A stretch of DNA of 64,000 nt from Klenkia brasiliensis. GTDB taxonomy: Bacteria > Actinomycetota > Actinomycetes > Mycobacteriales > Geodermatophilaceae. Location of the stretch: positions 372,001 to 436,000 of the forward strand of contig NZ_FNCF01000003.1 in assembly GCF_900100695.1 (NCBI RefSeq). Reading direction: 5' to 3'. The position numbers and the translations under genes were made by a program. How positions within the stretch are numbered: the first letter of the stretch is position 1; each line of letters begins with the position of its first letter. Of the stretch, positions 22,023 to 49,089 are shown one piece after another. Below the pieces are notes generated by a model that had not been told where the DNA came from, made no database searches, and saw only the letters and a program-made list of their open reading frames with translations.

Positions 22023-22933
22023 TCCCGGCCCAGGTCGCGGTGGCGGGCGTTGGCGGTCACGCCGTCGGCGGACAGCCGGCGGGCGAACTCCTCGGCGATG
22101 GCCACCGACCGGTGCTTGCCGCCGGTGCAGCCCACCGCCAGGGTCAGGTACTTCTTGCCCTCGCGCCGGTAGCCGGGGACCAGCAGCCGGAGCACGTCCT
22201 GGTAACGGTCCAGGAACTCCGCGGCGTCGGCGGCGCCCAGCACGTGGTCGCGCACCGGGGCGTCCCTGCCGGTCAGCGGGCGCAGCTCGGGCACCCAGTG
22301 CGGGTTGGGCAGGAAGCGGGCGTCGACGACGAGGTCGGCGTCCAGCGGGAGGCCGTACTTGAAGCCGAAGCTGAGCACGGTCGCGGTCAGCTCGGGGACC
22401 GCGCCCTCGCGCAGGAACGCCGCCTCCAGCGTCGCGCGCAGCTGGTGCACGTTGAGGTCGGAGGTGTCCACCCACAGGTCCGCGTCGCCGGCGATGCCGG
22501 TCAGCAGCGCCCGCTCGGCCGCGATGCCGTCGGAGAGCCGGCCGGAGCCCTGCAGCGGGTGCTCACGGCGGTTGGACTCGTACCGGCGCACCAGCACCTC
22601 GTCGCGGGCGTGCACGTAGACCACCCGCGGGCGGTGCCCGGCGTCGGTGAGCGAGCGGATCGACTCCGCCAGGTCGCTGGAGAAGGCCCGGCTGCGCACG
22701 TCGACCACCGCGGCGAACCGGCGGACGTCGCCGCGGGACCCCAGCTCGACCATCGGCGCCAGCAGGGCCGGGGGCAGGTTGTCCACGACGAAGAAGCCGA
22801 GGTCCTCCAGCACCCGGCCGGCGCTGTTCTTGCCCGCGCCCGACAAGCCGGTCACCACGACCACCTCGAGCGGGCCGGCGTCCGGCGGCTCGGCGGGGTC
22901 GGCCTCCGGGGCGGTCTCGGGCAGGTCGGTCAC
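22019..22933 (-). CDS. rapZ: RNase adapter/nucleotide-binding protein RapZ (YvcJ)
   Basis: A 304-residue P-loop protein with an N-terminal Walker domain and a C-terminal domain that in E. coli binds small RNAs and glucosamine-6-phosphate. The Walker A is [10 protein letters not shown] (29-38): the residue after Lys is Asn instead of the usual Ser/Thr. [30 protein letters not shown] and the C-terminal [15 protein letters not shown] are conserved. It overlaps uvrC and yvcK by GTGA on both sides. Whether the altered P-loop still hydrolyses nucleotide is unknown; actinobacterial RapZ proteins often vary here. Confidence 0.95.
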
Positions 22934-24927
22934 GAGGCGGCTCCGGTGGTCAGCGGGGTCGAGCTGCCATCATCGCCCGCCGCCGGGTCGGCCCCGGTCG
23001 CGGGTGGGTCGGCGACCGGGTCCGTGGCCGGCTCGGCCACCGCCGCGAGCACCGCCTCCGCGGTCCGCCGGCCGATGCCGGGCACCCGGGTGAGCTCGTC
23101 GACGGTGGCCGCCCGCAGCCGCTTGAGCGACCCGAACTCCTTCATCAACGCCTTGCGGCGGGTGTCGCCCAGCCCGGGGACGTCGTCCAGCAGCGACACC
23201 AGCATCCCGGCCGACCGCTTCTGCCGGTGGTAGGTGATCGCGAAGCGGTGCGCCTCGTCGCGGACCCGCTGCAGCAGGTACAGCGCCTCGGAGGTGCGCG
23301 GCAGGATGACCGGGTCGGGGTCGTCAGGCAGCCACACCTCCTCCATCCGCTTGGCCAGCCCGCACACCGCCACGTCGTGCACGCCCAGCTCGGACAGCGA
23401 CCGGGCCGCGGCGGCGACCTGCGGCTGCCCGCCGTCGACCACCAGCAGGTTCGGCGGGTAGGCGAAGCGGCGCGGCCGGCCCTCCTCGGCGGCGACGCCC
23501 TGCTCGTCCCTGCGGTCCTCCTCCTCCTTGAGGTGGCGGGCGAAGCGGCGGCGGACGACCTCGGCCATGGCGGCGGTGTCGTCGGTGCCCTGGGCGACCT
23601 GGAACCGGCGGTAGTCGCTCTTCTTGGCCAACCCGTCCTCGAACACGACCATGCTGGCCACCACGTTGGTGCCCTGCACGTGGCTGACGTCCATGCACTC
23701 GATGCGCAGCGGCGCGTCGGGCAGGTCGAGGGCCTCCTGCAGCTCCGACAGCGCCAGCGACCGGGCGGTGAGGTCACCGGCGCGCTTCACCCGGTGCCGG
23801 GCGAAGGCCTCCTGGGCGTTGCGCTCCACGGTCTCCATCAGCGACCGCTTGTCCCCGCGCTGCGGCACCCGCAGCGAGACCCGCGACCCGCGCAGCTCCG
23901 AGAGCAGCTCGGCGTAGACCTCGGACTCCGAGGGCAGCTCGGGCACCAGCACCTCGCGCGGCACCGCGTCGGCGGCGACGTCGCCGGTGTCGCCGCCGCC
24001 GTAGACCTGCAGCAGGAACTGCTCCACCAGCTGGCCGGTGGTGACCTCCTCGACCTTGTCGATGATCCAGCCCCGCTGGCCGCGCACCCGGCCGCCGCGG
24101 ACGTGGAAGACCTGGACCGCGGCCTCCAGCTCGTCCTGCGCGAAGGCGACGACGTCGGCGTCGGTGCCGTCGCCGAGCACGACGGCCTGCTTCTCCAGCG
24201 CCCGCCGCAGCGCGCCGAGGTCGTCGCGCAGCCGGGCGGCGCGCTCGTACTCCATGTCCTCGGCGGCGCGGGCCATCTCGCGCTCCAGCCGGCGGATGAT
24301 CTGCTCGGTGCGGCCGCCCATGAAGTCGCAGAAGTCGTCGACGATGTCGCGGTGCTCCTCGGCGGAGACCTTCCCGACGCAGGGGGCCGAGCACTTGCCG
24401 ATGTAGCCCAGCAGGCACGGGCGGCCGATCTGCCCGTGCCGCTTGAAGACCCCGGTGGAGCAGGTGCGGGCCGGGAACACCCGGGTCAGGGTGTCCAGCG
24501 TCTCGCGGATCGCCCAGGCGTGGGCGTAGGGGCCGAAGTACCGCACGCCCTTGCGCTTGGGACCGCGCATGACCTGCAGCCGGGGGTACTCCTCGTTGAG
24601 GGTGACCGCCAGCGACGGGTAGCTCTTGTCGTCCCGGTAGCGGACGTTGAACCGCGGGTCGAACTCCTTGATCCAGTTGTACTCGAGCTGGAGGGCCTCG
24701 ACCTCGGTGCCGACGACGGTCCACTCCACCGACCCGGCCGTGGTGACCATCTGCCGGGTGCGGGGGTGCAGCCCGGCGATGTCGGCGAAGTAGCTGTTCA
24801 GCCGCTGGCGCAGGCTCTTGGCCTTGCCGACGTAGATCACCCGGCCGCCGGGGTCACGGAACTTGTAGACCCCCGGCGACTCCGGGATGCTGCCGACCGC
24901 CGGCCGGTAGGTGGACGGGTCGGGCAC
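22930..24927 (-). CDS. uvrC: UvrABC excinuclease subunit C
   Basis: A 665-residue nuclease making both incisions in nucleotide excision repair. It has the GIY-YIG domain ([22 protein letters not shown] split across about residues 18-40), a cysteine-rich segment (CSTG ... [13 protein letters not shown]), a UVR motif that contacts UvrB ([20 protein letters not shown], about 235), the RNase H-like 5' nuclease domain ([25 protein letters not shown]) and C-terminal tandem HhH motifs. The tail after the HhH is Asp/Pro-rich and low in complexity. The GTG start lies three bases after the uvrA stop. Confidence 0.97.
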
Positions 24928-24930
24928 GGC

Positions 24931-27825
<2,895 letters not shown>

Positions 27826-27910: not shown

Positions 27911-29356
27911 TCAGCCGCCGGCGGCGGGGTCGAAGACGGGGGCGTGCCGACGCCAGGGTCCGTGGCGTTCCAGCTCCGCAGCCAGCCAGAGTAGTCGCGT
28001 CTCGGCACCCGGGGGGCCGACCAGCTGGACCGCCAGCGGGGTGCCCGTGGTGCGCAGACCGGCGGGCAGCACCAGCGCCGGGAGTCCCGCCAGGTTCCAC
28101 GCGGAGACCCACGGCGCCCACCGTGCGTTGGCGGTCACGTTGGCCAGCCAGCCGCGCTCGTGCCACGGCCGGGCGGCCAGCGGCGGGCCGGTGACGACCG
28201 GGGTGAGCAGGACGTCGACCCCGGGGTCGGCGGTGGCGGCGGACCCGGCGAACCAGCCGGCGACCTGCGCCCGGAACCGCTCGGCGGCGGCGGGGCGGAC
28301 CAGCCCGGCCCGGCGGGCCCAGCGGCCGAGCCGGGCGTGCGTTCGGGTGCGGGGCTGGAGGACGCGGGGGTCCAGGCCCAGGTGCGCGGCGTCGTCGGCG
28401 GCACCGGCGAACCACCGGGCGACCACGGCCAGCCCGGCCGACAGCGGCACCGGCGGGTCGCGCCGCACCACGGTGTGGCCCAGCGCGGTCAGCCGGGCGG
28501 CCACGGCCTCCAGCGCCGCCCGGCCCTCGGCGTCCAGCCGGGCCCCGGGCACCGGGGTGGCGGTGGACAGCGCGACGGTGAGCGCGCTGTCGTCGTCGTC
28601 GGTCGGCTCGGCGACCGCGCCGTCGGCCAGCACGGCGTGCGCGAGGGCGAGGTCGGCGACCGTGGTGGCCAGCGCACCGTTCTCGGCCATGCCCGACCAC
28701 GAGTCGGCCCCCAGCAGCGACGGCACGGTGCCGCGGCCGGGCTTGAGCGTGACCAGCCCGCAGGCGGCGGCGGGCAGCCGCAGCGACCCCAGCCCGTCGT
28801 TGCCCTGCGCCAGCGGCACACCGCCCGAGGCGACCGCGGCGGCGCTGCCGCCCGACGAGCCCGCCGGGGACAGCGCGGTGTCCCAGGGGTTGCGGCTGAC
28901 CGCACCGGGGCCGTCCGTGGTGGCGAACACGCACAGCTCCGGCACCCGGGTGATGCCGACGACCACCGCGCCCGCGGCCCGCAGCCGGGCCACCACCGGG
29001 TGGTCGGCCTCCGCGGGGGCGGGGACGGCGGCCGTGCCGTCGGTGACCACCTCGCCGGCGACGGCGACGTTGTCCTTGACCGCGACCGGGACCCCGGCCA
29101 GGGGCAGCCGGGCGCGGTCGGGCCGGGCGTCGACCGCGGCCGCCTCGGCCAGCGCGGCCTCGGCCCGCAGCACGCGGTAGGCGCCCACCCGGGGTTCGAC
29201 GGCGGCGATGTGCGCCAGGTGGGCGCGCACCACCTCGACGGCCGTGACGTCGCCGCGGCGCACGCGTGCGGCGAGCTCGGCGGCGGGCAGGCCGACCAGC
29301 CGCCGGGTGGTCTCCCGCGCGCCCCCGGCGCCCTCCGTGGCTAGGTTGGCGTCCAC
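27911..29356 (-). CDS. Amidase-signature hydrolase
   Basis: A 481-residue amidase-signature enzyme that hydrolyses carbon-nitrogen amide bonds; the substrate is unknown. The Ser-cisSer-Lys triad is visible: Lys94 in VAVKDN, the cis-serine in [16 protein letters not shown] (about 168) and the nucleophile Ser191 in [12 protein letters not shown], where the usual GGS is LGS. No GatB/GatC gene is nearby, so GatA of the tRNA amidotransferase is unlikely. The GTG start sits seven bases after a TAGGTT box that belongs to a DNA-damage-type promoter, and uvrA follows in the same direction, so it may be co-expressed with repair genes. Confidence 0.87.
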
Positions 29357-29363
29357 GCCGTCG

Positions 29364-29386
29364 AACCTAGACGGACCCACCGACAA
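29364..29386 (-). promoter_or_regulatory. RecA-NDp/PafBC-type DNA-damage promoter before the amidase-uvrA-uvrC run
   Basis: On the minus strand TTGTCGGTG (29386-29378), then 8 nt, then TAGGTT (29369-29364), then 7 nt to the GTG. This matches TTGTCRGTG-N8-TANNNT, the LexA-independent RecA-NDp motif recognised by PafBC in mycobacteria, at every defined position. The same motif lies before uvrB at 46768-46790. Confidence 0.75.
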
Positions 29387-44637: not shown

Positions 44638-46761
<2,124 letters not shown>

Positions 46762-46767
46762 GCACCG

Positions 46768-46790
46768 AATGTAGGACGGCCCACCGACAA
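46768..46790 (-). promoter_or_regulatory. RecA-NDp/PafBC-type DNA-damage promoter of uvrB
   Basis: On the minus strand TTGTCGGTG (46790-46782), 8 nt, TACATT (46773-46768), then 6 nt to the GTG start. All defined positions of TTGTCRGTG-N8-TANNNT are matched. No LexA palindrome is seen in this 220-bp divergent region. Confidence 0.78.
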
Positions 46791-46981
46791 TTCCAGTCGA
46801 TCGTGGGCAGCAGCACCCTCGGCCACCCGGCGGGCGCGGACGGTGGGCGGCAGACTCCTGCGGGGGGCCGCCGGCAGCAGCACGTGTGCGCCCCCGCACC
46901 GCGGGGCACCGACGCCCGAGCACCACCGCCCCCCGGCCCGGATCGACCGCGGCCGACCAGCGCAGGAGGATCCACGACCTC

Positions 46982-49089
<2,108 letters not shown>

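Follow-up and report, generated by a model that had tools for sequence, protein, structure and literature searches.

A probable PafBC-dependent promoter at the start codon of uvrB in Klenkia brasiliensis

We identified a promoter directly upstream of uvrB that very probably depends on PafBC (a RecA-NDp promoter). Carrying this reading are an excess of the motif over chance, the presence of pafBC, a regulon-like set of targets, conserved promoter geometry, and the absence of a LexA box. Binding of PafBC and induction by DNA damage at uvrB are predicted from these features. RecA-NDp/PafBC control, sigma adaptation at the -26 motif, and UvrABC targets are described in earlier work (PMC8223512, PMC11804915, PMC6789036, PMC8151990, PMC10693628), and M. 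tuberculosis has a degenerate motif with TGTCGG, TGTCAG, and TGTCAC forms (PMC8151990). The motif, its M. tuberculosis degeneracy, and UvrABC as PafBC targets are already known, and uvrB here is a well-supported further case.

The promoter lies on the minus strand of the window (the whole 64,000-nt stretch analysed). Positions 46790-46768 read TTGTCGGTG-N8-TACATT (full minus-strand read ctggaaTTGTCGGTGggccgtccTACATTcggtgcGTGacg), and the uvrB GTG follows at 46761, 6 nt past the -10 TACATT. Direct reading of the minus strand reproduced the sequence, coordinates, and 6-nt spacing of the original prediction, and a motif search bore out its ‘perfect’ consensus match, with agreement at every defined base of TTGTCRGTG-N8-TANNNT. 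The features are:

46782..46790, minus strand: -26 (PafB-type) element TTGTCGGTG of the uvrB promoter (direct read, motif search)
46768..46773, minus strand: -10 element TACATT of the uvrB promoter (direct read, motif search)
46759..46761, minus strand: GTG start codon of uvrB, located 6 nt past the -10 and probably the transcription start as well
44638..46761 (stop included), minus strand: uvrB, 707 aa; its S. oceani homologue has a UvrB_inter match

Judged from this geometry, the uvrB mRNA is likely leaderless, starting at or next to the GTG. A longer UvrB N-terminus (the frame is open to 47007) was considered and rejected: family promoters have either 6 or 7 nt from -10 to GTG, which leaves no reading frame shared across the promoter.

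The window contains two perfect matches to TTGTCRGTG-N8-TANNNT, both on the same strand (46790-46768 and 29386-29364). The second precedes an amidase gene followed by uvrA and uvrC:

29364..29386, minus strand: the other perfect RecA-NDp site, TTGTCGGTG-N8-TAGGTT; the amidase GTG follows after 7 nt
27914..29356 (stop codon not included), minus strand: amidase gene (PF01425, by Pfam)
24934..27825, minus strand: uvrA, downstream of the amidase gene
22933..24927, minus strand: uvrC, with its GTG 3 nt past the uvrA stop codon

This twin site (29386-29364) would drive the amidase gene and probably also uvrA-uvrC, by read-through from the amidase gene. No TGTC-N12-TANNNT was found in the amidase-uvrA gap (88 bases including the stop codon).

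From base composition, 0.0007 perfect matches would be expected per window and 0.05 per genome. With ≤2 mismatches allowed, the window has five matches where shuffled sequences average 1.08, and the looser TGTCR-N11-TANNNT occurs in the window only at uvrB and the amidase gene. The genome search that the original prediction proposed gave five perfect sites in 4.45 Mb and 15 sites with ≤1 mismatch, largely before repair and replication genes (reversed-pattern control, 0 for both). Thirteen of the 15 precede genes, at a -10-to-start distance of 6-7 nt in nine cases; in the remaining four the distances are 10, 27, 32, and 75 nt. This start geometry was not built in, because the ≤1-mismatch search required no start codon. 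The other two lie inside genes (by eye, a dnaK-like gene end and a transposase-like gene) and count against the PafBC reading.

The uvrB promoter belongs to a group of similar promoters that stand ahead of DNA-repair genes. Beside uvrB, the ≤1-mismatch sites have Pfam-recognised targets that include dnaX, a UvrD-type helicase, sbcD, priA, RNase J, and an ABC transporter, as well as a FakA-like gene (recG next), the amidase gene (uvrA-uvrC next), and a gene pair encoding a PD-(D/E)XK protein and, behind it, a UvrD/PD-(D/E)XK protein. Three target loci (L001, L005, L098) have no Pfam match; PADLOC identifies L001 as a CBASS-type cyclase. A relaxed leaderless pattern, TGTCR-N11-TANNNT-N6/7-RTG, matches 23 times in this genome. 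Twelve of these stand before genes that serve repair, recombination, replication, or chromosome upkeep, if two broad families are included: uvrB, dnaX, sbcD, methyladenine glycosylase, NAD ligase, SMC, polA, two PD-(D/E)XK nucleases, an exonuclease, a DEAD-type helicase, and an AP_endonuc_2 TIM barrel. For another two, the gene behind the first target is a repair gene (uvrA, recG). Nine of the 23 precede genes without an evident tie to DNA repair, which counts against the PafBC reading.

Two of the perfect sites have neighbours of separate interest. One (G000 C7:116282-116304; L350:2836-4443) precedes a CBASS-type pair, a CD-NTase-type cyclase (PADLOC) and a Cap15 effector (Pfam), with a 27-nt leader that contains a ribosome-binding-site-like stretch. 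This arrangement suggests that the pair may be a damage-inducible phage defence. Another (G000 C7:655990-656012; L351:546-6919) precedes a 1025-aa PD-(D/E)XK protein and an 1100-aa UvrD/PD-(D/E)XK protein, a pair that is AddAB- or AdnAB-like (named by eye).

The genome encodes the regulator. Pfam places PafA, a WYL/WCX protein in the PafB position, and PafC (with its own HTH family, HTH_PafC) in one locus, and proteasome genes recognised by eye adjoin pafA/pafBC. Both pafB and pafC, whose presence the original prediction had proposed to check, are thus found in the Pup-proteasome locus, along with pafA. Among four WYL matches in the genome, two are PafB and PafC. By the mechanism described for M. 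smegmatis (PMC11804915), single-stranded DNA arising from DNA damage would bind the WYL domains of PafBC. PafB would read the -26 element TTGTCGGTG and PafC would contact sigma-A domain 4, allowing the housekeeping polymerase to start at a promoter without a -35 box. Transcription of uvrB would then begin at or next to the GTG and yield a leaderless mRNA.

We compared uvrB upstream regions in a set of 57 genomes including this one, probably Geodermatophilaceae. uvrB was found in 56, the match was cut before the start in three, and 53 upstream regions (own included) were read. In 50 of them, a TANNNT lying 6-8 nt ahead of an in-frame start provided an anchor. All 50 start with GTG, at 6 nt in 26 and 7 nt in 24. 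TANNNT and its spacing served as the anchor, so the upstream TGTC is an independent result: TGTC is present in 49 of 50, TGTCR in 48, the GTG triplet in five, and the full TTGTCRGTG in three. The three non-anchored promoters have TGTC, TATNNT, and a GTG 8 nt on. The commonest family forms of the element are TGTCACAC and TGTCGTAC. The perfect match and start geometry of the original prediction hold, the geometry across the family, but the GTG triplet, kept in only 5/50 anchored family promoters, was rejected as essential. The conserved part of the consensus is TGTCR-N11-TANNNT, the perfect match at uvrB is lineage-specific, and, judging from the relatives, the switch can vary more in sequence than its textbook form allows.

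Across seven family genomes, the relaxed pattern matches 160 times (reversed control, 3). With one extra spacer base (N12) there are seven matches (reversed control, 13). An ECF41-type promoter (motif TGTCACA...CGTC) was considered for TGTCAC variants and dropped on spacing.

Beyond the family, relaxed-pattern matches and reversed controls number 25/1 in S. oceani, 31/1 in Peterkaempfera, 35/0 in Saccharothrix, 64/3 in Hamadaea, 39/4 in M. sphagni, 33/8 in Nocardia pneumoniae, and 21/2 in Acidimicrobiales DHS20C19, with 3/1 in Bifidobacterium, 6/2 in Bacterium D16-34, and 12/21 in Bacillus. An Acidimicrobiaceae MAG with PafC has just seven sites (two in the control), which counts against the PafBC reading. 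Pfam assigns repair or replication functions to the genes behind 13 of the 25 S. oceani sites (20 proteins analysed, five short ones left out), and the leaderless TGTCR sites of this species include those of recA, uvrB, uvrC, dnaX, a radA-type gene, xseA, and xseB. The corresponding figure for the Acidimicrobiales MAG DHS20C19 is 7 of 21 (Pfam on 10 proteins; uvrB is locus L038). By eye, M. sphagni has polA with TGTCGGAC and radA-like and dnaX-like genes with TGTCACAC. Several M. sphagni DUF222/HNH-like genes (L315, L319, L332, L340, L341; by eye) also have PafBC-type elements immediately before the start codon, and these overlap or adjoin LexA-like half-sites.

We treated 47 uvrB loci as actinobacterial. 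A TGTC-N12-TANNNT followed by an in-frame start is present in 26 of them; the search accepted spacings of 4-9 nt, yet every one of the 26 falls at 6-7 nt. We kept 44 named genomes, dropping L006 and L025 (without upstream DNA) and L018. PafC is present in 25/25 named genomes with the uvrB promoter vs 11/19 without; the chance of this association would be 0.0004 for independent genomes, a value that serves only as a guide, given the relatedness of the genomes and the presence of several incomplete MAGs. The 11 PafC-bearing genomes without the promoter, one a Corynebacterium, count against the PafBC reading. An exact LexA box, sought from 350 bases upstream of uvrB, was found in five of eight PafC-lacking named genomes and in none of the 36 PafC-bearing ones (0/25 with the promoter, 0/11 without). 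Genomes with PafC and neither promoter nor exact LexA box at uvrB are L021, L022, L028, L032, L040, L042, L044, L046, L047, L051, and L056.

The LexA pattern GAACNNNNGTTCG gives 30 rows at 18 places in this genome (reversed control, 4), with neighbours that include recA and dinB (Pfam) and lexA, ruvC, and an imuA-like gene (by eye). One box (G000 C13:55945-55957; L124:1506-3008) lies by a gene that is radical-SAM-like by eye and has an intein splicing domain match below the curated cut-off. Around the uvrB start, no GAACNNNNGTTC with ≤2 mismatches occurs at 46700-47000, in keeping with the LexA palindrome's reported absence there, and none occurs in the stretches searched before uvrA or uvrC. 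Upstream of the amidase gene is one two-mismatch GAACNNNNGTTC match, which shares bases with the edge of the RecA-NDp motif. Given that uvrB lacks a LexA box, it may be controlled by PafBC alone. Upstream of recA there is a LexA box and also a PafBC-type element, TGTCGGACCCCCGTCCTACCGT, 65 nt before the start and without the GTG triplet. The leaderless pattern does not pick up sites that have a leader; a direct look revealed this one, and recA as a LexA-only gene was rejected. Its two elements match the dual control described for mycobacteria (PMC8223512).

Dual control of uvrB itself, with PafBC activating and LexA also repressing through a diverged or distant box, has parallels in this recA and in mycobacterial uvrA and uvrC (PMC8223512). 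The absence of a box with ≤2 mismatches at 46700-47000 and the 0/36 count of exact boxes among PafC-bearing named genomes argue against it, and we regard it as very unlikely. Only a small chance attaches to a constitutive extended -10 sigma-A promoter, in which TTGTCG would be a weak or accidental -35 element, with no role for PafBC. The -10 is indeed of housekeeping type, but TTGTCG stands 11 nt from the -10 hexamer rather than near 17, one extra spacer base abolishes the excess (160 vs 7), and repair genes are abundant among the targets.

The uvrB site could also be read by a different WYL-domain activator working through the -26 region. SiwR is such a -26 activator and needs its -26 region too (PMC10693628), and the genome has two further WYL frames. 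Described SiwR sites have a palindrome and a GGA triplet, however, and a single operon is known for SiwR; the breadth of the repair regulon and the agreement with the mycobacterial motif favour PafBC. A SiwR-like reader is thus extremely improbable, and PafBC remains the preferred regulator.

We lean slightly towards the view that leaderless PafBC control of uvrB is an old Actinomycetota trait, with the signature TGTCR-N11-TANNNT and a start 6-7 nt on, that LexA and PafBC were exchanged at uvrB as PafBC came and went, and that Streptomyces and Acidimicrobiales have such regulons despite a negative first search in S. venezuelae. The host family includes radiation- and desiccation-tolerant members. 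A damage response studied mainly in mycobacteria is now extended to this family, and the comparison shows which promoter bases evolution keeps. In the first search, the M. smegmatis PafBC motif was apparently not conserved in S. venezuelae (PMC9380542); the S. oceani data, from another species, make the open question of a RecA/LexA-independent response in Streptomyces testable. Titles and abstract openings among the literature matches listed include none on leaderless PafBC promoters or on PafBC in Geodermatophilaceae.

LexA/SOS control places the same gene, uvrB, under a damage response, but uses a repressor and a palindrome, which is found at uvrB in five of eight PafC-lacking named genomes and not in this genome. 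The promoter described here resembles PafBC promoters of M. smegmatis and M. tuberculosis in motif, spacing, a -26 element with a housekeeping -10, and repair targets including UvrABC (PMC8223512, PMC11804915). It differs in its non-mycobacterial host and in the lack of a LexA-like box at uvrA/uvrC, which are dually controlled in mycobacteria. RecA-NDp-type promoters are described in Streptomyces and M. tuberculosis (PMC5087735, PMC2897130). The SCO6735 and recA promoters of Streptomyces likewise represent this promoter type outside mycobacteria, at a UV-inducible gene, although a single macrodomain gene and recA, rather than uvrB, are the cases shown there (PMC5087735).
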